Shown: one piece after another, positions 2,595 to 27,930 of the stretch
Position numbering within the stretch: the stretch's first letter is position 1
Layout of the letters: the number at the start of each line of letters is the position of its first letter
IMG/VR virus record: IMGVR_UViG_3300042691_018194
Location: 1-27,930 of that record
Reading direction: 5' to 3' (one strand)
Source of the DNA: a virus
Length of the DNA stretch: 27,930 nucleotides
The notes under the pieces: model-generated
What the model saw: only the letters and a program-made list of their open reading frames with translations
Told to the model about the DNA's origin: nothing
The model's database searches: none
Program-made: the position numbers and the translations under genes

Positions 2595-3191
2595 ATGCTC
2601 GACGTTCAGACCGATGTCCTCGCCGCCCTGGCGAAGCTGCAGACCATCACCGAGGCCCGGCAGTTCCGGTTCGCGGTGGCGAAGGCGCTGACGAAGACGG
2701 CCGTCGAAGTGCAGGCCGAGGTGCGCAAGAACATGCCGTCGCGCTTCACCATCCGGCGACCGTGGACCCTGCAGGGCATCCGCATCGTGCCAGCCACGAA
2801 GGAGAGCCTGACGGCCTCGGTCTACAGCCGCGACAAGTTCATGGCGCTGCAGGAGACCGGCGGCACGAAGAACCCGCTGGGGAACTTCATCGCCATCCCG
2901 ACGCGCGCCGTGCGCCGCACGAAGCGGGACTCGATCAGGCTGAGCGATCGACCGAAGGCGCTGGGCGACAAGGCCCACGTGGTCGACGTGAACGGCGACA
3001 AGTACCTGGCGCTGAAGAAGCCGCGGCGGGGCAAGAACGGCAACGAACTGCGCCTGCTCTACCTGCTGGTGCCGCGCGCCCAGCTTGAGGAACGGCTGGG
3101 CCTGAACAAGGACGGCCAGCGCGTGGCGCGGGCCCGGTTCGTGGAGAACCTACGGGTGGCCCTCGCCGCCGCCGTGGCCACCGCTCGCTGA
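2595..3191 (+). CDS. gpZ / HK97 gp10-like tail-completion protein candidate, on the opposite strand
   Basis: This is the only convincing plus-strand gene in the window (198 residues). A GAAGGG ribosome site precedes the ATG at 2595. Features resembling phage minor-tail Z/gp10-type proteins are an N-terminal helix with FAVAKALTKTAVEVQAEVRK (residues 26-45), basic beta-rich middle segments (SVYSRDKFMALQETGG, AIPTRAVRRTKR), a second Lys-rich block, and a C-terminal helix. These proteins act at the head-tail joint or tail terminator. The family call is from remembered sequence pattern, not a search. It starts 54 bp from the divergent endolysin gene, and its last 42 bp overlap the convergent membrane-protein gene. 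GC-rich codon use matches its neighbours. The normal Z slot between the FII-like gene and gpU is empty, so it may be a relocated Z or an independently expressed moron. Confidence 0.65.
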   Translation: MLDVQTDVLAALAKLQTITEARQFRFAVAKALTKTAVEVQAEVRKNMPSRFTIRRPWTLQGIRIVPATKESLTASVYSRDKFMALQETGGTKNPLGNFIAIPTRAVRRTKRDSIRLSDRPKALGDKAHVVDVNGDKYLALKKPRRGKNGNELRLLYLLVPRAQLEERLGLNKDGQRVARARFVENLRVALAAAVATAR

Positions 3192-3431
3192 CAGGTGCCT
3201 GCGCAGGTCGGGCGCTGCCAGTGCCAGCGCGGAGCCGAGCCCCGCCATCAGCGCGGCGCTGGCCGTAGCCGCGTCGTGCTGCAGCAGCTGCAGGCCCATG
3301 GCGCCCCAGCCAAGGCCGCCGACGATGAAGCCCAGCTTGCCGACGAAGCCGTCATTGAAGCGGGTGGAGAGGACGGCCGCCATCATGGCGACGGCCACCA
3401 GGGCGCACAGCAGCGCCAGCAGCATAGTCAT
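3150..3431 (-). CDS. Small membrane protein, possible second holin or antiholin
   Basis: This 93-residue protein has three hydrophobic segments (about 1-20, 33-51 and 55-75), a short loop STRFNDGFVGK between the first two, and a hydrophilic His/Gly-rich tail (SASGGHGGGEGHP). It starts at the ATG at 3431, three bases after the stop of the upstream holin-like gene, and precedes the endolysin in the transcript. Size, topology and place fit a holin or antiholin partner, but no family is recognised. Its 3' end overlaps the convergent plus-strand gene by 42 bp. Confidence 0.65.
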   Translation of the reverse strand: MTMLLALLCALVAVAMMAAVLSTRFNDGFVGKLGFIVGGLGWGAMGLQLLQHDAATASAALMAGLGSALALAAPDLRRHLSASGGHGGGEGHP

Positions 3432-3434
3432 GGG

Positions 3435-3755
3435 TCACTCCTTCCGAGCGGGAAGCCAGGATTCAACCATGCGCCGCATGCTGCCATCCCTCACCCATTC
3501 GAGGGCGGCCGCAGCGAGCGACATCCCTAGAAGCCCCACCAGGAAGGCCGCGCCGCTCGCGTAGTGCGGCGCCTCCAGGCCCAGCCAGTGGACCAGGGCC
3601 GGCGACAGGAAGCCGGCCATGACGGACCCCGCCAGGACGTTGATCAGGCGCTCCCACCAGGCGGCGCCCGGCGTGAACTTGAGTGCCGTCACCAGCGCGC
3701 CGAGCGCGCCCACGAAAAACGGGTTGCCGGCGATCTTCTCGGTGTCGATGTCCAT
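3435..3755 (-). CDS. Putative holin, three transmembrane segments
   Basis: This 106-residue protein has three predicted membrane helices (roughly residues 14-30, 38-59 and 67-88). A Trp pair (AAWWERL) lies between helices 1 and 2, and the C-terminus is basic (RRMVESWLPARKE). Three helices and a charged tail fit a class I holin, which forms the inner-membrane hole that releases the endolysin. Similar proteins precede the endolysin in other betaproteobacterial phages. It is followed three bases later by a second small membrane gene, and the pair may act as holin and antiholin. Which member forms the hole cannot be told from sequence. Confidence 0.7.
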   Translation of the reverse strand: MDIDTEKIAGNPFFVGALGALVTALKFTPGAAWWERLINVLAGSVMAGFLSPALVHWLGLEAPHYASGAAFLVGLLGMSLAAAALEWVRDGSMRRMVESWLPARKE

Positions 3756-3764
3756 GCGCGGATC

Positions 3765-4133
3765 TCAGAACTGGGTGCGGTAGAAGGCGGCCACCTGGCC
3801 GCGGGGACCGACAGCCAGGGCCCAGCGTGCGCCGTAGGCCCCGGCCGCGGCGCCGGCGGCGGTGACGGCGAAGTCCTGCACGCTGCAGGTGTGCCGCTCG
3901 GGGCGGTCGCGGTCGTAGACCTCTTTCAGGGCGCCAGCAGCCACGCCAGCAGCGAAGCCGGCCCAGGCGTTGCGCTGCTGCAGGGTGACGGCTGCAGCGA
4001 TGCCGGCGCCGGCCGCGAAGTGCATGGCCTTGTCCGGACCGCGCCAGGCGTCGCGCGCCGTGCAGGCTGCGGCCACCGGGGCGGCAGCCAGAGCCAGCGC
4101 CGCGGCCAGCGCCATGGTCAGGCGGGCTCTCAC
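3765..4133 (-). CDS. YfiM/VanZ-like secreted or lipid-anchored protein
   Basis: This 122-residue protein starts at a GTG (4133) that overlaps the stop of the fibre gene (GTGA); an ATG at 4115 is an alternative start. It has a long Ala/Leu signal-like segment ending APVAAAC. The mature part carries DKAMHFAAGAGIA, then AGALKEVYD, then SVQDFAVTAAGAAAGAY. This spacing of D-K-x-x-H-F, K-E-x-x-D and D-x-x-x-T-x-x-G is as I remember it in YfiM-type putative lipoproteins. The role is unknown; such genes occur at the tail-fibre/lysis boundary of phages and may act in the envelope. Whether the Cys after AAA is lipidated is uncertain. Confidence 0.65.
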   Translation of the reverse strand: MRARLTMALAAALALAAAPVAAACTARDAWRGPDKAMHFAAGAGIAAAVTLQQRNAWAGFAAGVAAGALKEVYDRDRPERHTCSVQDFAVTAAGAAAGAYGARWALAVGPRGQVAAFYRTQF

Positions 4134-14332: not shown

Positions 14333-15052
14333 TCAGGTCTTTGGCGCGTAGCGCCAGGTGAGGCCGTAGGCGGTCTTGCGTTTGCCCGCGCAGGCTTGGC
14401 AGATGTGCCCGCCCTGGGCGCGCTCATGGCCCTGAGACTGAAGCCACCGCGTAGCCGCCAGAACCATCGGGAAGACCTGTCCGGTCTCGATGCACTCGAC
14501 AGGCCGAGATTGAGCCGCGCTCAGCTTGGCCCGGACCTCGGGCTTCTGCATGGCGACCTTGTGCGCGGCGAGAGCCTTGGGCGACCGCGCGTTGGCCGCG
14601 ATCTTGGCTCGCACCTCGGGGCGCTGGTAGGCGGCGCGGATGGCGGCCGATCGACGGGAGAGCGTGACAGGAGAGGCCGCGATGCGCTGCGAGATCTCGC
14701 GCTGCTTGGCCCTGACCTCCGGGCGAAGGTGCGCCGCACGGATGGCCGCCTGACGCCGCTTCTCCGCCTCTTCGGTCAGCCTCGCGCCGTCTCCGCCAAC
14801 AGTCATGTTGACCAAGTTCGCGCCGAGGCGGGTGAGTTTTTCGATCAGCTCGACCTCGGCGAGAAGCGCAAGCTCCTCGGGCAAGCCGCTGGCCACCACG
14901 CGAACGGTGCGACCATGCTTGGCGACGACCCGCTGCCAGTAGACGCTGCGGCGGGACTCGCGCCACGCGCGATCTCCGCGGCCCTTGCCCACGTAGAAGG
15001 TGGCCCCGTCGTCTTTGCGGGCGTGGGTGTAGACGTAGAAGTCCTGGGCCAT
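14333..15052 (-). CDS. GIY-YIG homing-type endonuclease with NUMOD repeats
   Basis: This 239-residue protein lies between the tail chaperone and tape-measure genes, a place with no gene in lambda. The GIY-YIG nuclease domain fills residues 1-90: YVYTH and FYVGKG form the two signature strands, with GRGDRAWRESRR, then AEVELIEKL (probable catalytic Glu at 66 or 68) and LVNMTVGGDG. It is followed by three NUMOD3-like DNA-contact repeats, each centred on PEVRAK (111, 145 and 171). A C-terminal IENR/NUMOD-like module runs from 184 (VECIETGQVF...ICQACAGKRKTAYGLTWRYA). This layout is that of free-standing homing endonucleases. The ATG at 15052 is 8 nt after the chaperone stop codon. The stop lies in the tape-measure frame. 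It looks intact, so it may still be active. Confidence 0.9.
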   Translation of the reverse strand: MAQDFYVYTHARKDDGATFYVGKGRGDRAWRESRRSVYWQRVVAKHGRTVRVVASGLPEELALLAEVELIEKLTRLGANLVNMTVGGDGARLTEEAEKRRQAAIRAAHLRPEVRAKQREISQRIAASPVTLSRRSAAIRAAYQRPEVRAKIAANARSPKALAAHKVAMQKPEVRAKLSAAQSRPVECIETGQVFPMVLAATRWLQSQGHERAQGGHICQACAGKRKTAYGLTWRYAPKT

Positions 15053-15060
15053 GGCCGAGT

Positions 15061-15743
15061 TTATTCCTTCATCGCGTCCAGCGCCGCGATCTCCATCACC
15101 TGCAGCCCGGCGAACAGCTCGCCGTCTGGGTCTTCGATGCGAAGACGGCGCAGAGCCACGTCCACGCCCTGGTAGTCCAAGCCGACCGGGTGGCCCATGC
15201 CGCCGATGCGCCACTGTGTCTGCACGGCAAGAAACGCCAGGAGGGTCGGCCAGTTTTCGGGCAGCACCTCGAACACCTCGACCACCGCATCTGCCGCCTC
15301 CATGTCGTCCAGGGCCTCGGCAGGCAGCCCGAACGCCGCGATGTCGTCTGCCGCCTGCTTGCTGTCACCTCGGCCGCCGCGCGCCCAATGCTCGGCAGCC
15401 TGACTCAGTTTTTTCGGGCGACCCCCGAGTTGGCTGCGATGAACGCGCGCACGATGCTGGCCGCCGCCGTGGGCACGTCCAGCAGCTTCTCCAGGTTGCC
15501 GGCACTGAAGGGCACCTCGGCGCCGTCCTCGGTCACGCCGCTCCAGCCCTTGGTGACGCGGCGGGCCAGCTCCTTGTCGCCCAGCTTGCCCTGCGTGATC
15601 TCGGACTCCATCGCTTCCAGCGTGGACTGCGAGACGCGCTCGAACTCGGCGTCGAATGTTTCCTTGGTGAACTTGCCGCCGTCGCCGGCGACCATCACCT
15701 CGACGGGCCACAGGAAGGTGGCCGACTGCTTGATCTTGAACAT
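15061..15743 (-). CDS. GT: Tail assembly chaperone GT, made by -1 frameshift
   Basis: A -1 slip at A AAA AAC (15408-15414) joins the 112-residue G frame to a 115-residue downstream T frame, predicting a 227-residue GT protein. The T part begins LSQAAEHWARGG and has the DUF1799-type core LLAFLAVQTQWRIGGMGHPVGLDYQGVDVALRRL. It has no start codon of its own at its beginning. In lambda, G and GT at a fixed ratio chaperone gpH and recruit the tail tube protein. The slip site sits on the last two sense codons of G, immediately before its TGA, which is ideal for programmed slippage. The frameshift rate cannot be read from sequence. Confidence 0.92.
15405..15743 (-). CDS. G: Tail assembly chaperone gpG (zero-frame product)
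   Basis: This 112-residue protein begins MFKIKQSATFLWPVEV and contains GGKFTKETFDAEFERV, as in many gpG-like chaperones. It ends NSGVARKN followed by TGA. It coats the tape measure during tail assembly and is made in excess over GT. It starts three bases after the tail-tube stop codon. The last codons CGA-AAA-AAC are the slippery site. Confidence 0.92.
   Translation of the reverse strand: MFKIKQSATFLWPVEVMVAGDGGKFTKETFDAEFERVSQSTLEAMESEITQGKLGDKELARRVTKGWSGVTEDGAEVPFSAGNLEKLLDVPTAAASIVRAFIAANSGVARKN
15408..15414 (-). promoter_or_regulatory. -1 ribosomal frameshift heptamer A AAA AAC
   Basis: Read on the minus strand, the sequence CGA-AAA-AAC-TGA holds the canonical X XXY YYZ heptamer in the correct phase for G. 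After slippage the next codons are CTG-AGT-CAG (LSQ), leading into the T frame. A GC-rich stretch downstream (15365-15400) could fold as a stimulator, though I cannot define a specific pseudoknot. Confidence 0.88.
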
Positions 15744-15746
15744 GGG

Positions 15747-16682
15747 TCAGCTCACCACGATGCTGTATTCGTTGTTGCCCGACCCGCTCGGCACGAAGTT
15801 CATGCCCATCTGCAGCATGTGGATGCCGTCCAGGTCGGTGTAGTTCGGCGCCGTGAGCTGCACGCCGCTGGAGCTGATGGCAACCCGGTTGCCAGCCACC
15901 GTGCCGTGCGTGATGGCCAGCGCGCCCAGCGTCGCGTTGCGCGCGATCGTCCACCAGTCTTTCTCGGCCACCGTGGTGGCTTCGATGGTGATGCTGCCCT
16001 GCGTCTGGCGGTCGGTGAACAGCACGTTCTCGGCGCCGCCCACCAGGGTGCGGTGCACCAGCGAGCCGCCCTGGTCGATCGACAGCTCAGACATCACGGC
16101 CGCGAAGCTGTGCAGGCTGAACGGCGTGGTGTTGATGTTGTTGACCACCAGCGGCTTCTGGAACGGCGTGTAGGTCGGCGTCGGCAGCGCGGTGTCGGTG
16201 ACGGCGTTGTAGAGGCCGGTCAGCGTGAACTTGATGGTCGGGATTTCCTTCGCGCGCAGCGAGAGGGTCATCGTGCCGCGGGCGCCGGTCAGGCGGTGCA
16301 GCACGCCATCGACGTTGAAGTAGATGCTGGCCGACTCGAAGCTCTGCGAGATCGGCGCGTAGGTCACGGACACGCCGGCCGAAACGGTCTCGCTGTGCGC
16401 ACAGGCCCGCATCAGCGCGCCCCAGCCAGGCGCCGTACCGGCCGTGCCGCTGCCCGCCAGCTCGACCTCGAACTCGACCATGGCGCGGATGGCCGCCGGC
16501 AGCTGCTCGCTGCGGCCCAGGTACGGGCGCACCAGGTCGCGGTCGGCGAACTCGGTGTCCTGCGGGGTCAGCGTGAGGTTGCGCACCAGGATGGCGTTGG
16601 CCGCGCCGGTGGGCACGCTGTCGGTGCCGTAGGTGGTTTCGATCTTGGCGAGGATCACTCGCTTACGGGACAGCAGCGGCAT
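15747..16682 (-). CDS. V: Major tail tube protein, gpV family
   Basis: This 311-residue protein starts MPLLSRKRVILAKIETTYGTDSVP, the usual opening of betaproteobacterial phage tail tube proteins. Other landmarks are VEFEVELAGSGTAGTAPGWG (residues 68-87), GARGTMTLSLRAKEIPTIKFTLTG and ending NNEYSIVVS. It polymerises as stacked hexamers around the tape measure. Lambda gpV is 246 residues, so this one may carry extra surface beta structure. An AGGAG ribosome site lies 6 nt before the ATG. Its place before G/GT fits the lambda order. Confidence 0.9.
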   Translation of the reverse strand: MPLLSRKRVILAKIETTYGTDSVPTGAANAILVRNLTLTPQDTEFADRDLVRPYLGRSEQLPAAIRAMVEFEVELAGSGTAGTAPGWGALMRACAHSETVSAGVSVTYAPISQSFESASIYFNVDGVLHRLTGARGTMTLSLRAKEIPTIKFTLTGLYNAVTDTALPTPTYTPFQKPLVVNNINTTPFSLHSFAAVMSELSIDQGGSLVHRTLVGGAENVLFTDRQTQGSITIEATTVAEKDWWTIARNATLGALAITHGTVAGNRVAISSSGVQLTAPNYTDLDGIHMLQMGMNFVPSGSGNNEYSIVVS

Positions 16683-16844: not shown

Positions 16845-16893
16845 ATTCTAGATTTCGGGGATGTCGCAGGGGCGCGGCAGGGGGCGACTTTCA
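16845..16893 (-). repeat. Stop-to-start intergenic element, copy 1
   Basis: Read on the minus strand: TGAAAGTCGC, 10 variable bases, GCCCCTGCGACA, 11 variable bases, TAGAAT. Its first three bases are the gpU stop codon, and the ATG of the 49-residue gene follows 9 bases after TAGAAT. GTCGC and GCGAC can pair as a 5-bp stem. A second copy with identical block spacing is at 26116-26164. TAGAAT resembles a -10 box, but no -35 box lies at the usual distance. Confidence 0.75.
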
Positions 16894-17307
16894 GTCCGCC
16901 AGGCGATTGCGTGGGCGCCGGTGCCAGACCACGAAGCGCATGGCCGTGAAGCCGGCATCCTGGTCGGCGCCCTCGGTGTCGAAGTCCGTGCCGTCTTCGG
17001 TCACGTCGATGGCCAGCGCGCCCAGCGTCGGGTTGTCCATCATCGCCGCGAAGGCCGCCTCGGCGATCGGGTCGGCAACCTGGTCGGGCACCGTGCCGCG
17101 CGCGTAGACCTCGACCAGCACGGTCAGCCTGGCGTCGACGTAGCCGTTCGTGTTCTCGCTCACCTGCTCGCCGTCCGGCCGCACCACGATGGCCGGCGAC
17201 TCCTCGCGGCTCATCGCGTCCTCGCGGCTGCGGTAGACGCCGGTCGTGCCAGGCACCGCGGCCAGCAGGGTGGCGATGGCCTGCAGGATCTGCTCGCGCT
17301 TGGTCAT
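16891..17307 (-). CDS. U: Tail terminator / minor tail protein, gpU-like
   Basis: This 138-residue protein is close to lambda gpU (131) in size and lies just upstream of the tail tube gene, as U does. The N-terminus MTKREQILQAIATLLAAVPGTTGVYRSREDAMSREESPAIVVRPDGEQ is typical of this group: a helix, a loop with a basic strand, then the acidic EQVSENTN. The beta strands LTVLVEVYARGTVPDQV and the end AMRFVVWHRRP follow. The protein caps the growing tail. It overlaps the upstream fusion gene by ATGA, and its stop codon begins intergenic element copy 1. Confidence 0.82.
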   Translation of the reverse strand: MTKREQILQAIATLLAAVPGTTGVYRSREDAMSREESPAIVVRPDGEQVSENTNGYVDARLTVLVEVYARGTVPDQVADPIAEAAFAAMMDNPTLGALAIDVTEDGTDFDTEGADQDAGFTAMRFVVWHRRPRNRLAD

Positions 17308-19133
17308 GGCTTCCTCAGTTTCAGGGTCTTGACGGCGCCGTCGAAGGTCGCGCGCACCTCGCGCACCACGTAGGTGGCGGGCCCGACTACCACCTCGGCG
17401 CCGCGGACGATGCCCGGCCAGTCGGTGGCCCTCATGGTCACCTGGTAGGCGTCGGTCAGCACCTCGCCGCCCAGCACGTCCTCGGTGGGGCTGTCCAGCA
17501 GCACCCGGGCCGGGGCACCGCGCCAGAACGCCAGCGTGGCGAAGTCGGGCACGTTGAAGAAGGCGCCCAGGTCTTCCTGGAAGCCGAAGGTCTGCGGGCC
17601 GGTACCGGCCACGCGCGTCAGCAGCAGCTCCTTCAGGGCCCCGTCATCGAGCAGCCGCACCTCGCGCACGCGGTAGCTGCCCCCGTCGATCTGCAGCACG
17701 GCGCCGCGGCCGATGCCCGGGAAGCTGGCCGCCGGCAGCGTGGCCGCGTATTCGTCCGTCAGCACGCGGCCGCCCAGCACGTCCTCGGTCGGCGCGTCCA
17801 GGATGACGCCGGCCTGCAGCGTGCCCCAGACGGCCGGCAGCGCGAACGCCGGGTCGAAGAACAGCGCCAGCGACTCGACGCCGCGCGCCGGGCCCACGCC
17901 GCCGAAGGCGACGGCCGCCAGCGCGCCCAGCACTGCACCACCGCTGCCCGAGATCGGCGCCTGGTCGGAGACGCTGGCGGTACCGGCGCCGAGAATGCGG
18001 GCCAGCAGCACCGCGGAAGTGCCGCGCACAACCACGGCGGCGGCGCCCGCCGAGCTGGCGGCGCCGAGCGTCGCCGCGCTGCTGCCAGCGACGCGCACTG
18101 CACCAGCACCGGCAGCACCGGCCTGGCCGAGCGAGCCGGCCGCCGAGCCGGACACCGAAACGACGCCCGAGGCCGTGGCGACGACGCCGCGCAGCTGGGC
18201 GTCGGCGCTGCCGATTACGGGCGCCACGCCGACAGTGGCCGATCCGGTGGCCTGCACCTGGCCCAGCGTCGCGGAGCCCGAGCCGGTGGCGGCCAGCGTG
18301 GCGGCTCCCGAGGCCTGCACCGGCTGGGCCGCGGCGGCGCCAGAGCCGGCCACGTGCACGGCGGCGCTGGCCGCCTGGGTGGCCTGGCCCAGGGCGGCGG
18401 CTGCCGACCCGGCCACGCCGGCAGCAGCGGCGCCGCTGGACTGCACGGTGCCGAGCGTGGCGGCCTGGGTGCCCACGGCTGGCACCGAACCCACCGAGGC
18501 GTTGCCGGACGCGATGACGGTGCCCAGCGTGGCGGCGCTGCTGCCGGCGGCGCTGACGGTAGCTGCGGCCGAACCGGCGATCGCGCCCAGCGTGGCCGAG
18601 CTGGCGCCCGCCGCACTGACGGAGCCCGAGCCGGCAGCCGTGGCCGGTGCCAGGGCAGCAGAACTCGAGCCCGCGGCCAGGACGCCGCCCGCTGCAGCCG
18701 CGATGAACTCGCCGAGGATCTGGGCCGCCGAGCCGCTGATGCCGCTGCCCAGCGTGTCGAAGCGCGCGCTCTCGACTACGTTGCTGTCGCTGGTGCCGTC
18801 GCTCCAGACGAAGGCGATGCGGTAGCCGGTGCTGGCCGTCAGTCCGGTGGCGAGGCTGGGCCAGTCGAACGGCGCCGTGGTGACGGTAGGCGCGGCGACA
18901 TTGCCGGCCCACGTTGCCGGGTTGCCCTCGGCGTCGGTGCCGAGCTTGATCTGCGCGGCCGAAGGCGCGCCAGTGCCATCGGCATAGATGACGGCGTACA
19001 GCGTGGGCACCGCGGCCGGCGGCGCTTCGAAGAACTCGCCGGAAAGGATCGCCCCCGAAGGCCCGTCGTCCCACGCATCCGCGCCGCCTCGCGGCGCCGA
19101 GGGCGCGTCGTACAGGGGGAGCTTGTCGGCCAC
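17304..19133 (-). CDS. Fusion: FN3-like domain, 21-residue repeats and two tandem FII-like connector domains
   Basis: This single 609-residue frame has three parts. Residues 1-130 contain an FN3-like beta domain (ATGLTASTGYRIAFVWSDGTSDSNVV). Residues 134-417 are thirteen Gly/Ala/Ser repeats. Residues 419-508 and 520-609 are two related domains that share ILDAPTEDVLGG/LLDSPTEDVLGG, LTDEY/LTDAY, PGIGRGA/PGIVRGA and YRVREVR/YVVREVR. The duplicated domain resembles lambda gpFII (117 residues), the head-tail joining protein, and lies just before gpU. The start is GTG (19133), after the TAA of the upstream gene. The carboxyl half probably forms the head-tail connector ring and the rest projects outward. 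I see no convincing internal start that would separate the parts, and no frameshift. Confidence 0.85.
   Translation of the reverse strand: MADKLPLYDAPSAPRGGADAWDDGPSGAILSGEFFEAPPAAVPTLYAVIYADGTGAPSAAQIKLGTDAEGNPATWAGNVAAPTVTTAPFDWPSLATGLTASTGYRIAFVWSDGTSDSNVVESARFDTLGSGISGSAAQILGEFIAAAAGGVLAAGSSSAALAPATAAGSGSVSAAGASSATLGAIAGSAAATVSAAGSSAATLGTVIASGNASVGSVPAVGTQAATLGTVQSSGAAAAGVAGSAAAALGQATQAASAAVHVAGSGAAAAQPVQASGAATLAATGSGSATLGQVQATGSATVGVAPVIGSADAQLRGVVATASGVVSVSGSAAGSLGQAGAAGAGAVRVAGSSAATLGAASSAGAAAVVVRGTSAVLLARILGAGTASVSDQAPISGSGGAVLGALAAVAFGGVGPARGVESLALFFDPAFALPAVWGTLQAGVILDAPTEDVLGGRVLTDEYAATLPAASFPGIGRGAVLQIDGGSYRVREVRLLDDGALKELLLTRVAGTGPQTFGFQEDLGAFFNVPDFATLAFWRGAPARVLLDSPTEDVLGGEVLTDAYQVTMRATDWPGIVRGAEVVVGPATYVVREVRATFDGAVKTLKLRKP
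17883..18734 (-). repeat. Thirteen tandem ~21-codon repeats inside the connector fusion
   Basis: The unit is GSSAATLG, about 5 variable residues, G-x-A-x-V and 3 variable residues. Nine of the first eleven units are exactly 21 residues. Units 3 and 7 (counting from 0) are 24 residues and unit 11 is 25; each of these three carries an added Pro-containing tail (VPAV, APVI, APIS). So every fourth unit is long, giving a super-repeat of about 87 residues. Unit 12 is degenerate. The regular Gly and Leu/Val positions suggest a beta-helix or stacked strands. Confidence 0.85.
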
Positions 19134-19136
19134 GGC

Positions 19137-19946
19137 TTACCCGTGTGCGATCTTGCCGCCGCCGCGCACCGTGCCCGTGCTGGTGGTCGAGCACAGCATG
19201 ATGGGGAACAGGCAGGCATCGTTCGGCACTTCGACGAGGCCGAGCGCCGCCCAATCGTATTGCTCGATCTTGTTCGCGATGGCCGTCGCGACGACGGTTC
19301 GCGGCCTCGTCGCGGTGATCCCGAAGTTCCCGGCCGTGCCCGTCGTGGCAGAGAGCGTCACGGAGTTGACGGCCTTGATGAACTTGCCGGCGACGGCGCT
19401 CACCAGCGGGAACAGTCGTGCAGTGCGCGCCGTCGCGCCAAGGGCGACCCCAGCGAGGTTGCCCGTGGTGTCGTCGTTGTACGTGACGTTCGCGGTCGCG
19501 TTGACGTTGGTGGAGCCAGTGTCGGCGTACCACTCAAGCCACCATTGCACGTCGCTGTAGTTCGCGTCGCCCAGGCGGTCAGAGGAAAGCCCGGCCAGCG
19601 TCAGCGCGCCCTGCGCAGTCGTGACGGTGCCCGAGAGGCCGCCCATGTGCGCGAGGCGGTCGTGAATCTCGATGTTCGTCGTCGCGTTGCCGGTGGCGAG
19701 CCAGAGCCAAGCGAGGTAGCTCGTGACAGGCGCAGTCTGGTTCGCGAAGCCGAAGCACCCCGTCAGCGCCGACGTGCAGATCGCCGCGGTCGTCGGGATG
19801 GCCCCCTGCCCCGGCACACCGGTCGCACGCCAGAGGCTGAAGGTTTGCCCCGCGACGGCGTTCGCGAGCGAAGCCTTGTCGATGACGATGCGGCTGCTGT
19901 TGTTGGCCAGCGCGTCGATGAGTTGGTCGCGGGTGGTGATCGTCAT
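19137..19946 (-). CDS. Putative virion structural protein, unknown function
   Basis: This 269-residue protein begins with a helical MTITTRDQLIDALANNSSRIVIDKAS, which resembles small phage adaptor N-termini, and continues with a beta-rich, Trp-containing body (YLAWLWLATGNATT, DVQWWLEWYADTGSTNVNATANVTYND). Later segments are hydrophobic but show no clear membrane helix. Four Cys are present, three of them near the C-terminal LFPIMLCSTTS and the ICTSALTGC segment. Position inside the accessory virion block, between a LamG-like protein and the connector fusion, suggests a capsid- or tail-surface component. I do not recognise the family with certainty. Confidence 0.7.
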   Translation of the reverse strand: MTITTRDQLIDALANNSSRIVIDKASLANAVAGQTFSLWRATGVPGQGAIPTTAAICTSALTGCFGFANQTAPVTSYLAWLWLATGNATTNIEIHDRLAHMGGLSGTVTTAQGALTLAGLSSDRLGDANYSDVQWWLEWYADTGSTNVNATANVTYNDDTTGNLAGVALGATARTARLFPLVSAVAGKFIKAVNSVTLSATTGTAGNFGITATRPRTVVATAIANKIEQYDWAALGLVEVPNDACLFPIMLCSTTSTGTVRGGGKIAHG

Positions 19947-19953
19947 GGTTTCC

Positions 19954-20760
19954 TCAGAACGTGATTGTGACGCGCGGCCTGGCGCTGGTGGGGCCGATGT
20001 CGATGACGGTGGGCAGGCTCAGGGTAGGGATGGTGACGCCACCCCCCGCCGCAAACGGCACAGGGATGCTGCGCTCGCGGAAGAGTTGCCAGGGGTTAAG
20101 CGACAGCGCCCGGTTGTCTTCGCGCGAAAACTGCGCGGCGAACGTCGCCAGCAGCGGTATTGCCTGCGCGCGGTCTGAGTTGTTCGCGCCCGTAAACAGC
20201 GCAGCACTTGAGCCCGTACGGCTTGGCGCAGAGGTGTTGCTGGCGATCAGCACCCCGTCGTGCCATATCTCCATGCCCCGCAGGCCAGCGGACAGCACCC
20301 ACACGCCCCGCTCTCGCGGCGCAGCACCGTTGATGGAGCTGCTGCCGGAGTTGCCGCCCCATCTGAAATAGGCGTTCCCGTCGCCGGCGAACCGCATGAA
20401 GCAATTGAATTCAGCGGTGCCTAACGTCCCCGGAGTGCCGATTGCGAGCGTCGAAGCGTTGCGCCCGCCCGTGTATTCCTCTTCGTTGACGTAGATCAGC
20501 GTGAAAAGCTGACCTGTCGGGATGACAAACGACGAATCGGGGAAGACCGATAGGCCGCTCGGATAGACCGTGTTCGGAACTGTGAGGACGCGGCCCGCTT
20601 GGCCCACCGCCTGGCCGGGGTATGTCCACACGCGCCCGTTCGTCGGGTCCACGTTGCTGCCAAGCAGCACCGAAAGGTTGCCCGGAAAGCGCGCGCCATC
20701 AACCTCAACCGGGTCCTGCGGCTGCTCGTACCACGGGACGGGAACCCGGATCAGCGACAT
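19954..20760 (-). CDS. LamG/concanavalin-like virion surface protein
   Basis: This 268-residue protein has a jelly-roll-like pattern. Short strands with YFRWGGNSGSSSING, RGVWVLSAGLRGMEIWHDGVLIASN and SSAALFTGANN are typical of LamG/ConA-like folds seen in phage surface proteins. The N-terminus (LIRVPVPWYEQPQDPVEVDG) and the LSLNPWQLFRERSIPVPF motif near residue 220 recur in betaproteobacterial prophages. The end RPRVTITF is also common there. The likely role is carbohydrate or surface binding, or decoration of the virion. The domain call is by pattern and the binding target is unknown. The start is ATG at 20760, three bases after the upstream stop codon. Confidence 0.72.
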   Translation of the reverse strand: MSLIRVPVPWYEQPQDPVEVDGARFPGNLSVLLGSNVDPTNGRVWTYPGQAVGQAGRVLTVPNTVYPSGLSVFPDSSFVIPTGQLFTLIYVNEEEYTGGRNASTLAIGTPGTLGTAEFNCFMRFAGDGNAYFRWGGNSGSSSINGAAPRERGVWVLSAGLRGMEIWHDGVLIASNTSAPSRTGSSAALFTGANNSDRAQAIPLLATFAAQFSREDNRALSLNPWQLFRERSIPVPFAAGGGVTIPTLSLPTVIDIGPTSARPRVTITF

Positions 20761-20763
20761 CGC

Positions 20764-21180
20764 CTAGCTCGCGCGCTGCTCGTTGTAGATCGCGCTGATG
20801 GTGATGTTGCGCGTGGCGCTCTGCGGTGCGCGGCTGACCAGCTTGAACGCCTGGGCGCCGTTGATCGGCAGGCGGAACGTGCGCGCGGCCGGATCTTCGC
20901 CGGGGTCGTTGGCCGCCACCGTGTCAAGCCGGCCCAGCGCCATCGCGTGCTCGGGCGTGTCGAAGTTGGTGCCGTCCACGCTCCACGAGATCCACAGGTC
21001 CACCACGTCACCGCTGGCCGGTGTGCCGGCGTTGTCCACCAGCACGCGCAGGGTGGCCGCGATGGCCGTGGCGTGGATGGGCTCGCTGTCGCTCTCGTAC
21101 CGCGTGGTGTTGCTGTTCATGGTGAGCGAGGAGGCCGCGCTCCACGTCACCGCCACGTCGTGGTCGTTGGTCAGAGCCAT
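20764..21180 (-). CDS. Putative phage structural (jelly-roll-like) protein
   Basis: This 138-residue beta-rich protein contains ATAIAATLRVLVDNAGTPASGDVVDLWISWSVDGTNFDT and a C-terminal TRNITISAIYNEQ. The WSVDGTNFDT segment and Asn/Asp-rich turns are typical of small virion decoration proteins. No catalytic motif is seen. It is packed one base after the upstream gene, in a cluster of probable virion accessories. Whether it sits on the head or the tail cannot be told. Confidence 0.68.
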   Translation of the reverse strand: MALTNDHDVAVTWSAASSLTMNSNTTRYESDSEPIHATAIAATLRVLVDNAGTPASGDVVDLWISWSVDGTNFDTPEHAMALGRLDTVAANDPGEDPAARTFRLPINGAQAFKLVSRAPQSATRNITISAIYNEQRAS

Positions 21181-21181
21181 G

Positions 21182-21574
21182 TCACGCCCCCGGCGCGGGG
21201 TTCGCCGCGGTCTGCAGGCTGCGCGCCACCGCCAGGATCACAAGCATGGCGATGGGCATGGTGACGACGCCCGAGGTGATGGCGCCAGCGATGGCGGCCC
21301 GCGTGCCAGCGTCCAGCGCGAGGCCGCTGTCGGGGTCCACAAGCGGGATCGGCGTTTGCGAGGTCGCATCCACCGGCGCGTTGATGACTGGCACCTCGGG
21401 CGCGGTCTGCAGCACCTCGATGGCACCGCCTTCCAGCTTGACCGCCCACACCTGGCGCAGCGTCACGTCAGGGCTGGAGCCGCTGCCCGGGGCCGGGTAG
21501 CCGATCTCGATGCGAGGCACGCGCAGGTAGGGCACGCCCACGGCGCGGGTATCGTAGTTCGTTGACAGGCTCAT
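21182..21574 (-). CDS. Conserved phage protein with C-terminal membrane segment
   Basis: This 130-residue protein begins MSLSTNYDTRAVGVPYLRVPRIEIGYPAPGSG, an opening I associate with conserved phage proteins of unknown function. A central QTAPEVPVINAPVD region is followed by one hydrophobic C-terminal stretch (residues 95-120, AIAGAITSGVVTMPIAMLVILAVA) that could cross a membrane. It follows the small basic protein by 4 bp and is coupled to the next gene by 1 bp. The role is unknown. A membrane segment in a virion-cluster protein may point to a function in DNA entry or in exclusion, which is speculation. Confidence 0.7.
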   Translation of the reverse strand: MSLSTNYDTRAVGVPYLRVPRIEIGYPAPGSGSSPDVTLRQVWAVKLEGGAIEVLQTAPEVPVINAPVDATSQTPIPLVDPDSGLALDAGTRAAIAGAITSGVVTMPIAMLVILAVARSLQTAANPAPGA

Positions 21575-21578
21575 CAGT

Positions 21579-21830
21579 TCACCTCGTTTCGTCGTTCAGG
21601 TCGCCCCACTCGGAGCGCCCGCGGAACAGCAGCGGCGGCACGGGCTTGGCCCGCGGCGCCGTGGGCTTGTAGGACACCAGCCGCACGCTGCCGTCTCGGC
21701 GCCGCTCGCCGTAGAGAACGTGCGGGAACGGCCCCCAGCGCGAGCGCCGGATGACCAGGTAGCCCTCGCGGCCCTTGCGACCGCGGCGCCGGTGCAGTGC
21801 GATGGCCCATATGAGGCAGTTGCTCCGCAC
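21579..21830 (-). CDS. Small basic phage protein, partner of the NlpC-like gene
   Basis: This 83-residue protein starts at a GTG (21830), 6 bp after the stop of the NlpC-like gene. It contains EGYLVIRRSRWGPFPHVLYGE, then PPLLFRGRSEWGDL at the end. This pattern (YLVIRRS-R-x-G-x-x-P-H) is as I remember it in small proteins found next to permuted NlpC-like genes in betaproteobacterial phages. An overlapping frame with an ATG five bases upstream (21835) lacks such character and was rejected. The function is unknown. Confidence 0.68.
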   Translation of the reverse strand: MRSNCLIWAIALHRRRGRKGREGYLVIRRSRWGPFPHVLYGERRRDGSVRLVSYKPTAPRAKPVPPLLFRGRSEWGDLNDETR

Positions 21831-21836
21831 GGGTCA

Positions 21837-22274
21837 TCACTGCACGCGCGGCCAGCGCCAGGCGACAGCTGCCTCCAGCTGGCGAACGTCCCAGGAGTCG
21901 TGATCGGGCAGCCCGATGATCTCGGCCGTGGCCTGGGTGCAGATGGGCCCGCCCCAGCTCGGGCGGAACATGGGCAGAAGGAAGCGCACCAGGCGCCACC
22001 AGCCGTAGCCCTCGCGGTCGCGCCGGCGCAGGTAGTCGTGCGCGCGCTCGGCCGGCACATCGGTCTGGTACAGCCGCCACTTCGAAGCCGGCAGCGGCAT
22101 GGTCTTGGGCCGCACGCCGCCGTCCATCTGCGCCGAGCTCACACACCAGAACAGGCCGTCGCCCTGCGGCACGGCCACCTCGGTGTGCGAGCCGCTGCCG
22201 CCACGCGCCAGCCGCACCAGGCGGCCGAACAGGCGCGGGTCGTCGTAGCGGACAGCGACCAGCAGCGAGGCCAT
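21837..22274 (-). CDS. Permuted NlpC/P60 (papain-like) protein
   Basis: This 145-residue protein has the His before the Cys, as in circularly permuted NlpC/P60 or LRAT/YaeF-like folds. GSGSHTEVAVPQGDG gives the probable catalytic His (H30), and WGGPICTQATAEIIGL gives the probable nucleophile Cys (C113). There is no signal peptide. The family includes amidases and peptidases acting on cell wall or lipids. In a virion-gene cluster it could be a capsid-borne hydrolase, or may only use the fold. It is a second potential hydrolase besides the NlpC domain of gpK. The fold assignment is by motif only. Confidence 0.68.
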   Translation of the reverse strand: MASLLVAVRYDDPRLFGRLVRLARGGSGSHTEVAVPQGDGLFWCVSSAQMDGGVRPKTMPLPASKWRLYQTDVPAERAHDYLRRRDREGYGWWRLVRFLLPMFRPSWGGPICTQATAEIIGLPDHDSWDVRQLEAAVAWRWPRVQ

Positions 22275-22278
22275 GGCG

Positions 22279-22932
22279 TCAGGCGTTCGGCGCCGTCAGC
22301 GACTTGGCCGTGATGGTCACGGTCTGGCCGCTGTTGATGGTGGCGTTGTCCAGGGTCAGGTCCTGGGTGAACGTGATAGCGGCAGCGTTCGCCACGCCTG
22401 CCGTGCTGGTGGCCGACAGCGTGACGGTGGTGCCGCCCACGGCCACCACGGTGGCACCAGCGGGGACGCCGGTGCCGGCCACGTTCATGCCCACCACCAC
22501 GCCGGTCGTGGCTGCGAAGTTCAGCACGTTGCCGTTCGCCGCCGTGAGGGCGTTCGTGGTCAGCGCCACCTGCTGGCCGCACGTGCCCTGCTCGTGGCAG
22601 GTCGTGCCGGCGTTGTCGACGATGCGGTAGTAGGCGGCCAGCCCGCTGGCAGCTGCAGCCGCCTGCCAGGTGCCCGACAGCGACTTGACGCCGGCAGAGG
22701 CCGCAGCGGCCCAGTCGGCCGGCAGCGTCATTTCCAGGATCTGCGTGCCGGTCTGCGCGGCCGCGGGGTTCGCAGGCATCGAGCCGGTCAGCAGGCGCAG
22801 CTTCGGCTGCGCGGCCGTGCCGGTGACGCTGCCGCCCGAGCCGGTGCCGGCGCTGACGGCCTGGCCGTTCACGCCGACCTCGTAGGCCTCCAGCATGGAG
22901 TTGCGCACGCCGGTGGAGAGTTGAATGGTCAT
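22279..22932 (-). CDS. Putative capsid decoration protein with inserted domain
   Basis: This 217-residue protein has an N-terminal part (MTIQLSTGVRNSMLEAYEV, then AQPKLRLLTGSMPANPAAAQTGTQILEMTL) and a C-terminus (LDNATINSGQTVTITAKSLTAPNA) that match a common phage virion protein of about 140 residues. Between them, after HEQGTCG, sits an extra block of about 70 residues with GTGVPAGATVVAVGGTTVTLSATST, an Ig-like or beta-sandwich module often found in surface proteins. GAGG precedes the ATG at 22932, and a terminator-like hairpin lies just upstream. Probably a surface-exposed head protein. The start and ends are well supported; the function is inferred. Confidence 0.68.
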   Translation of the reverse strand: MTIQLSTGVRNSMLEAYEVGVNGQAVSAGTGSGGSVTGTAAQPKLRLLTGSMPANPAAAQTGTQILEMTLPADWAAAASAGVKSLSGTWQAAAAASGLAAYYRIVDNAGTTCHEQGTCGQQVALTTNALTAANGNVLNFAATTGVVVGMNVAGTGVPAGATVVAVGGTTVTLSATSTAGVANAAAITFTQDLTLDNATINSGQTVTITAKSLTAPNA

Positions 22933-26115: not shown

Positions 26116-26164
26116 ATTCTAGGCGGCGGCCTTGTCGCAGGGGCGGTGCTGGCCGCGACTTTCA
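26116..26164 (-). repeat. Stop-to-start intergenic element, copy 2
   Basis: Same three blocks and spacing as copy 1: TGAAAGTCGC, 10 bases, GCCCCTGCGACA, 11 bases, TAGAAT. It begins with the portal stop codon, and the protease ATG follows 9 bases after TAGAAT. The variable segments differ from copy 1, so only the blocks and their distances are conserved. Confidence 0.75.
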
Positions 26165-27760
26165 GGGAGCCGGCCGCGGAGCCGGCGGGGGTGCGCCTGG
26201 GCGACCAGCAGCGGGGGCTGCCGCGGCGGCTGGGTCCTGCTCCAGGCCGTCCGCGATGCGTCGCTCCTTCACCACCTTCTGCATGGCGTGGCTGGTCTCC
26301 CAGTCGCCGCCGTCATAGGCGATCTTCTCCTCGGGCAGCGACGACAGGCCGATTGCCATGCGCTTCTCGGCCGCGTTCGCCTCCTTCTCGGGGTCGATCG
26401 CGCCGGGGCCGTCGCCGCTCCACTTCGAACCGCACCAGGCCTTGCGGATGGCCGGGTCAGCGAAGAAGCCCGGGGCCTCGACGCGGCCCAGCGTGACGGC
26501 CTCGGCGAACCACTCCTCATAGACCGGCTGGCAGAAGTTGTCGGCCAGCCAGGTGCGGCGGATCTTGAACGTGCGCCAGGCGTCCAGCAGGGCGGCGCGC
26601 GCGGCCGAGTAGCTGCTGCTGAAGTGCTTTGCCAGCACCTCGTAAGGCACGTTCAAGCCGATGCCGATCTGCTTCAGGCAGGCCGTGAAGAACGGGTCGA
26701 ACTCGGGGTTCGGGCGTCCCGGCGTGGGCGACTGGATCTCCTCGCCGGGCAGCAGCTGCACGGCCTTGCCGCTGTTGACGTGGCCGTCCCACTCCTGCGC
26801 CTGGCTGATCAGCTTCTGCTGGGCCTCGTCCTTGAACAGGTCTTGGAAGGCCTCGGTCTCCATGCGCACGAACAGCGCCATGGTCGCGCTGTTGACGGCC
26901 GCGTCCACCTCGGCGTTGGCGAAGCGGTCCATCTGCTTCAGCAGAGCGATGATCGGCGCCAGTGCGGGGATGCCGCGCGTCTGGCCTGGCCGCGTCTTGC
27001 GCATCAGGTGGATGACGTTCAGCCGGCCGCTGCTCGCCCCGCGGATGGTCACGCGCGTCCACTTCGGGGTCACCTGGCCGACCCAGCGGCCCGGGTGCCG
27101 GTTGCAGATGTGCACGGCCACCGGCTCGCCGGCCGCGTTCTTCTCGATGCCCTGCACCATCGACTCGGTGTCGCCCTTGTCGTCGGTGTTGCGCACGCGG
27201 TCGGCTTCGATGATCTGCAGCGCCAGGCGGTACGGCCAGCCGGGGCGCGTGACGCCGGCCAGGACGGGGAACGTGTCGCCGGACTCCAGGAACGACCGGA
27301 ACGTCAGGTCCTGCAGCTCGTAGAAGTTCTGCTGCGCGGTGGCGTCGCAGAACTTCGACTCGCACCACAGCTTGAACTCGCGCTCGATGATCTTCTGCCG
27401 CTCGCTGGCCTGCTCGGCCGACATGCCCAGGGCCTCGTGATCGATGCGCGACTGCAGCGTCAGGCCGGTGCCGACCACGTGCGACACCTGGGTCTCGATG
27501 GCGCCGGCTGCGATGGGCGAGTTACGCACCAGGTCGCGGCTGCGGCCCCGCAGCTCGGGCAGCGACAGCACGGTGTCGGCGTCGGCGTCGCCCTGGCCTG
27601 GCATCCAGCCCGAGAAGCGCTCGGCGTAGCCGGCGCCCACGTAGCCGCCCGACAGGGCCATCATGCCGCGAGCTTGGTGACGCTTCAGCGCCCAGCCAGG
27701 GGCCACGGACGCGATGGCGCGTTCCAGCAGGTTCGGCTTCGGGGGCGTCGGCTTGGGCAT
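26162..27760 (-). CDS. B: Portal protein, gpB-type
   Basis: This 532-residue protein is almost the size of lambda gpB (533). Landmarks are the N-terminal LSLPELRGRSRDLVRNSPIAAGAIETQVSHVVGTGLTLQSRID, the central FRSFLESGDTFPVLAG, LIMRKTRPGQTRG-like ...LMRKTRPGQTRGIPALAPIIALLKQ, and later VPYEVLAKHFSSSYSAARAALLDAWRTF, all typical of the lambda portal family. The C-terminus is Ala/Pro-rich and disordered (AAAAPAAGRPGAPPPAPRPAP). It forms the dodecameric portal through which DNA is packaged. The ATG (27760) overlaps the gpW stop codon (ATGA). Confidence 0.95.
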   Translation of the reverse strand: MPKPTPPKPNLLERAIASVAPGWALKRHQARGMMALSGGYVGAGYAERFSGWMPGQGDADADTVLSLPELRGRSRDLVRNSPIAAGAIETQVSHVVGTGLTLQSRIDHEALGMSAEQASERQKIIEREFKLWCESKFCDATAQQNFYELQDLTFRSFLESGDTFPVLAGVTRPGWPYRLALQIIEADRVRNTDDKGDTESMVQGIEKNAAGEPVAVHICNRHPGRWVGQVTPKWTRVTIRGASSGRLNVIHLMRKTRPGQTRGIPALAPIIALLKQMDRFANAEVDAAVNSATMALFVRMETEAFQDLFKDEAQQKLISQAQEWDGHVNSGKAVQLLPGEEIQSPTPGRPNPEFDPFFTACLKQIGIGLNVPYEVLAKHFSSSYSAARAALLDAWRTFKIRRTWLADNFCQPVYEEWFAEAVTLGRVEAPGFFADPAIRKAWCGSKWSGDGPGAIDPEKEANAAEKRMAIGLSSLPEEKIAYDGGDWETSHAMQKVVKERRIADGLEQDPAAAAAPAAGRPGAPPPAPRPAP

Positions 27761-27930
27761 CAGAAGTTCGGCGTCGGGGTGATGCTGCGGCCTCGGCCGC
27801 TACCGCGTGCCGACAGCTCTTGCACGCGCTGGTTCCAGAGAGTGATGCCCTGCTGGATGCTGCGCAGGTCGGCGCGGCGCAGGCGACGGCCGCCGATCTC
27901 GTACTCTTGGCCGCCCAGGACGGCAGTCTC
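27760..27930 (-). CDS. W: Head-tail connector gpW-like (N-terminus cut by window edge)
   Basis: The last 56 codons and the stop are inside the window and run open to its edge. The visible part reads GGQEYEIGGRRLRRADLRSIQQGITLWNQRVQELS, then a basic Gly-rich tail (ARGSGRGRSITPTPNF). The strand, helix and LRRADL...I...W order match gpW, whose members are only about 65-80 residues, so most of the gene is present. gpW binds the portal before tail attachment. In lambda, W lies directly before the portal gene, as here. Confidence 0.85.
   Translation of the reverse strand, partial: ETAVLGGQEYEIGGRRLRRADLRSIQQGITLWNQRVQELSARGSGRGRSITPTPNF

Follow-up and report, generated by a model that had tools for sequence, protein, structure and literature searches.

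The neck locus

The stretch of DNA analysed here, called the window, is a viral contig of 27,930 bases which carries on its minus strand a structural module of the lambda type, as delineated by ORFs and by Pfam and phrog matches. Genes are arranged in the order portal, S49 protease, capsid protein, accessory block, stopper ORF, tail terminator, tail tube, assembly chaperone, tape measure and gpJ-type tip. The capsid protein resembles gpE, and scores slightly under the Pfam cut-off. The stopper ORF runs from 19133 to 17304 on the minus strand, starts with a GTG codon, and resides between capsid and tail terminator, the gene position of gpFII-type stoppers. Its stop codon overlaps the start codon of the terminator gene as ATGA, both in the window and in the related metagenomic phage L005. 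The terminator is made of one domain of 138 residues. The ORF interrupted by the window edge may encode the adaptor, as suggested by its gene position. The features are as follows.

27760..27930, minus strand: truncated DUF6148 ORF at the gpW (adaptor) position, ending at the window edge (PF19645, 29.5 bits, cut-off 27)
26162..27760, minus strand: lambda-family portal protein (PF05136, 343 bits)
17304..19133, minus strand: whole stopper ORF, 609 aa, with N-terminal module, 21-residue repeat array and two gpFII-type domains (ORF and translation; near-identical contigs L003 and L004; L005)
18750..19013, minus strand: N-terminal module, residues 41-128 (48% identity with the corresponding region of L005)
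17901..18740, minus strand: repeat array rich in Ala, Gly and Ser, about 13 units with a period of 21 residues, spanning residues 132-411 approximately (autocorrelation)
17610..17888, minus strand: D1, first gpFII-type domain, residues 416-508 (PF05354, 38.3 bits, cut-off 26)
17748..17792, minus strand: PTEDVLGGRVLTDEY of D1, aligned with lambda gpFII residues 46-62, the gpU-contacting hairpin (alignment to lambda FII)
17589..17609, minus strand: D1-D2 linker AGTGPQT, residues 509-515 (sequence between the two domain matches)
17307..17588, minus strand: D2, second gpFII-type domain, residues 516-609 (PF05354, 44.3 bits; AlphaFold; Foldseek)
17445..17489, minus strand: PTEDVLGGEVLTDAY of D2, same hairpin segment (alignment to lambda FII)
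16891..17307, minus strand: tail terminator, gpU-like, single-domain (phrog_4204 tail terminator, E 1e-26)
15747..16682, minus strand: tail tube protein (PF18906 Phage_tube_2, 71 bits)

Between the stopper and the genes of the capsid side there are seven ORFs (19137-22932, minus strand), mostly unknown, one of which is weakly Laminin-G-like. Several relatives carry extra genes between stopper and terminator instead, some of them annotated as fibre proteins. As accessory genes are placed at either side of the stopper across the window and its relatives, this locus resembles a hot spot for insertions.

Two gpFII-type domains

The earlier note had placed two related domains at residues 419-508 and 520-609; their existence is confirmed, with limits now set at 416-508 and 516-609. 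D1 and D2 are identical at 46 of 93 positions (49%), and share, as had been claimed, the motifs PTEDVLGG, VLTD-Y, PGI-RG and VREVR. Their Smith-Waterman score is 202, the maximum reached in 2,000 shuffles being 56 (Z about 33). PF05354 scores over its cut-off in D1 and D2 separately, and at no other place in the window. The NCBIfam gpFII equivalog NF049848 also matches two stretches (44.3, cut-off 25). In a profile search against the PDB, for which a 54-sequence family profile was used, lambda gpFII is the best entry (E 0.0015), and the R4C joining protein is found at E 0.2.

Structure prediction was successful in part. The two-domain AlphaFold model, built from two sequences, has a pLDDT of 46 and is too poor for use. 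Adding single-domain rows was of no help, because MAFFT put all of them on D1, and D2 was hence modelled alone. The D2 model (mean pLDDT 84.8) features the beta-sandwich of stoppers, the prediction covering this domain alone; the N-terminal helix of the lambda type is short and of low confidence. The top four PDB matches of the model in Foldseek (8gtf_M, 8k37_M, 8xow_f, 9l0e_A) correspond to the R4C stopper, two lambda structures and the T1 stopper-terminator. The link to gpFII, which had been conjectured from the sequence, is thus borne out by PF05354, the NCBIfam equivalog, the PDB profile search, the predicted fold and the gene position.

The R4C stopper (roseophage protein vBDshSR4C_009, PDB 8GTF) is the best fold match of D2, with a TM of 0.74 by query length, and forms a ring above a six-fold terminator; it is single-domain and hexameric, whereas the window ORF has two domains. 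Lambda gpFII (PF05354; PDB 1K0H, 8K37) shares with the window ORF the sequence family, the predicted D2 fold and the gene position before gpU. In contrast to the window protein, in which two domains lie in a chain of 609 residues behind a repeat array, lambda gpFII is a stand-alone protein of 117 residues and one domain. Stand-alone, single-domain organization, usual in gpFII-type stoppers, is thus lacking in the window ORF; this is a variant feature, which falls outside the family model.

Both copies appear to be maintained. Among the stretches compared between window and L005, D1 and D2 are the best conserved, and dN/dS values of 0.37 and 0.46, respectively, denote similar constraint. A degenerate copy is not supported by conservation and dN/dS. 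In lambda, the hairpin formed by gpFII residues 46-62 enters the gpU ring, and the N-terminal helix lies around the barrel of the adaptor (PMC10721106). The short segment aligned with the hairpin is present in D1 and D2, and most near-invariant positions of the PF05354 family are kept in both. D2 deviates at a few near-invariant sites, such as position 82, which is F in the window and G in L005. Such deviations might be expected if one copy only entered the stopper ring, the other being peripheral or chaperone-like, for example holding the repeat arm. This arrangement is quite improbable, given the similar constraint on the two copies and the retention in both of the hairpin segment and of nearly all other near-invariant positions. 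Hairpin retention in excess of the domain average reaches significance in the window (p 0.005) but fails to do so in L005 (p 0.25), and was dropped as an argument.

Repeat array and N-terminal module

The long array that had been noticed between the N-terminal part and D1 is supported by autocorrelation, as identity at lag 21 is 0.344, beyond the maximum of 0.272 obtained in 1,000 composition-preserving shuffles. The same period is found in L005 (about 18 units) and in a third metagenomic phage, L113 (about 7 units). In both, as in the window, the 21-residue Ala/Gly/Ser array is followed by two gpFII domains, and in all three lineages it is placed before D1 only. The FN3-like domain described at the N-terminus was not confirmed, since no Pfam family, FN3 or other, is matched by this region in the window or L005 even at E values up to 10; the region is a conserved module, and L113 does not carry a similar one. 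That the N-terminal part decorates the neck is plausible. An accessory Ig-like domain located outside the ring is carried by another neck protein, the R4C adaptor (PMC10276861). The ORF found just upstream of the portal gene in L024 (1013-1576, plus strand), which by eye seems to be extended by a long beta-rich part ahead of its gpW-like end, recalls the latter.

One fused chain

The same ORF is encoded by L003 and L004, two near-identical contigs from other metagenomes, which are 99.99-100% identical to the window. The L005 protein measures 697 aa, is 74% identical to the window protein over the tandem, and has an equivalently placed start codon, which is ATG. L113 (IMGVR_UViG_3300023174_000397) features at 2713-3804, plus strand, a stop-to-stop frame of 364 codons, which encodes a third, more distant tandem stopper with a shorter array. 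An assembly artefact was rejected on the basis of the two matching contigs and of the independent L005 and L113, in which the same design, array followed by two gpFII domains, is found.

Internal starts and proteolysis do occur among phage structural genes, and the window also has a gene for an S49 protease. Separate production of the C-terminal part by either route, which would leave ordinary stoppers in the virion, is nevertheless scarcely credible. The reading frame across the tandem is unbroken in all three lineages, and no start codon preceded by a Shine-Dalgarno sequence lies at a boundary of D1 or D2 in the window or L005, the phages examined for this. The data support the fusion seen in the earlier note, D1, D2 and the N-terminal part being probably made as one chain.

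The window ORF encodes the stopper, or head-tail joining protein, of a siphophage of the lambda type, with its gpFII domain duplicated in the chain and fused behind an array of 21-residue repeats. Two full gpFII-family domains lie in one frame, at the gpFII gene position, and three phages have this design. A published duplicated stopper was not found in the open-access literature, and a doubled stopper behind a repetitive arm represents an uncommon version of a familiar component.

Relatives and history of the tandem

The fetched loci, retrieved mostly via tube and terminator genes, contain 80 distinct single-domain sequences, including a few partial ones and that of lambda itself, and 3 distinct tandem proteins. 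When whole contigs of 31 records were searched with the Pfam model, exactly one domain was found in 26, two in the L005 and L113 contigs, and none in three. Single-domain frames measure about 90-230 codons, too short to host an array plus domain as seen in the tandem proteins, and are thus considered to have no array. Tandem and array hence co-occur in 3 of 3 tandem lineages, and in none of the single-domain relatives examined. Annotated phages searched by tblastn with the tandem contain single-domain relatives only, and both halves of the query match one place in S-CBS1 and S-CBS3. Many single-domain stoppers of the S-CBS1-like group (L088, L074, L065, others) carry about 45 extra C-terminal residues. 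A Glutamicibacter match, obtained by scanning genome contigs, has no PF05354 match and is considered doubtful. A stopper-like protein of 258 aa from phage ISF9, found in BFVD, was not located in two stretches of the ISF9 genome.

In the tree, the D1 domains of window and L005 pair with each other, as do their D2 domains (support 99/96 and 100/99, respectively), which places the duplication before the separation of these two phages. D1 and D2 of L113 group with each other (87/78), and a topology which unites the six tandem domains in one clade is not rejected (p-AU 0.26). The tree fits either a single or a repeated duplication, and L113 may or may not share the event of window and L005. The single-domain stoppers of the related metagenomic phages L023, L110 and L114 share a clade with the tandem domains (100/99). 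These are of the same family, and reside at the same locus, as the window ORF, but feature one domain of about 94 aa in a stand-alone gene without repeat array. The tube of L023 is closer to that of the window (76% identity) than the tube of L005 (69%); in contrast, the terminator of L023, which has a single stopper, is 45% identical to that of the window, vs 67% for L005. Tandem stopper and terminator seem therefore to travel together, apart from the tube.

Number of chains in the ring

The stopper is the meeting point of the 12-fold head connector and the six-fold tail, and holds the DNA in. A natural duplicated stopper is a ready test of how many chains and hairpins are needed at the head-tail joint. 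In the lambda neck the stopper is made of six chains, located under the 12-chain adaptor and above the six-chain terminator (PMC10721106). Six copies have been found also for SPP1 gp16, correcting earlier counts of twelve; before binding its adaptor, gp16 is a monomer (PMC9701221). The R4C stopper is a hexamer (PMC10276861). The earlier note had proposed that six chains form a ring of pseudo-twelvefold symmetry, which would match the portal and adaptor, both 12-fold. The number of domains, twelve, corresponds to that of the adaptor, but known stoppers are present in six copies under 12-fold adaptors, and the symmetry mismatch would merely be shifted to the terminator, with twelve hairpins for six gpU chains. 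As the segment which contacts gpU in lambda is kept in both copies, this model is probably wrong.

The stopper sandwich has been described as tube-like (PMC11661146, PMC9701221), and pseudo-hexamers of three chains, each with a duplicated tube fold, are known. These are formed by the T5 tail tube protein pb6 (PMC5717097), the P74-26 tube protein (PMC10034513) and HFTV1 BTC (PMC12494034). The window ORF resembles them in having two homologous tube-fold domains in one chain (49% identity). They are, however, tube or tail-tip proteins, not stoppers, and the three-chain state of the window protein is one that we infer. The arrangement which fits best, with a probability of roughly 0.6, is a stopper ring of three chains, a pseudo-hexamer in which D1 and D2 alternate. 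The preference derives from the hexameric state of known stoppers, the precedents of duplicated tube folds, the presence of the hairpin segment and of near-invariant positions in both copies, and the single-domain terminator. Under the 12-fold adaptor, three chains would supply six stopper domains, and the ring would be three-fold in its true symmetry and six-fold in its pseudo-symmetry. The gpU ring, made of single-domain subunits and presumably hexameric, would receive a hairpin from each of the alternating D1 and D2. The array, which precedes D1 only, would project from alternate positions, forming three arms at the neck. Several observations count against three chains. The window tube is of the ordinary single-domain type, and nothing else in the phage shows three-fold rings; the N-terminal helix of D2 is of low confidence, the hairpin test in L005 is not significant, and D1 of L113 has a less typical hairpin.

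Six chains might instead form two stacked hexameric rings, one of the copies sitting on the adaptor and the other on gpU, in a neck one ring longer. Tube-fold rings stack naturally, the linker is short, and D1 and D2 are separate conserved lineages in window and L005, as expected if their roles differ. Yet specialised rings should each lose an interface, whereas both copies retain the hairpin segment along with almost every near-invariant position, and the duplicated tube-fold proteins found all form one pseudo-hexameric ring; stacking is unlikely. If the ring is made of three chains, the duplication route to pseudo-hexamers, known in tail tubes and tips, would extend to the neck.

Tandem and array may be parts of one linked innovation, a reading to which we give even odds. 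The duplication would have cut the joining ring from six chains to three (C3, pseudo-C6, between 12-fold adaptor and six-fold terminator), and the array, borne by the first copy, would provide three arms at alternate positions, not six crowded ones. From the co-occurrence of tandem and array we hypothesize that crowding of arms was the reason for the duplication: arrays on all six subunits would crowd the joint, and two domains per chain would halve the number of arms. Co-occurrence in all tandem lineages suggests in this way a testable reason, fewer fused arms per ring.

Other genes in the window

The ORF at 14333-15145 (minus strand), between the chaperone genes and the tape measure, looks like a homing endonuclease of the GIY-YIG type, with no Pfam family over cut-off. 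A DUF6441 protein encoded at 2595-3191 (plus strand) has a weak HK97-gp10 match, and is possibly a tail-completion protein. Its gene lies at a great distance from those of the neck, and is read from the other strand; lambda Z is located between FII and U.
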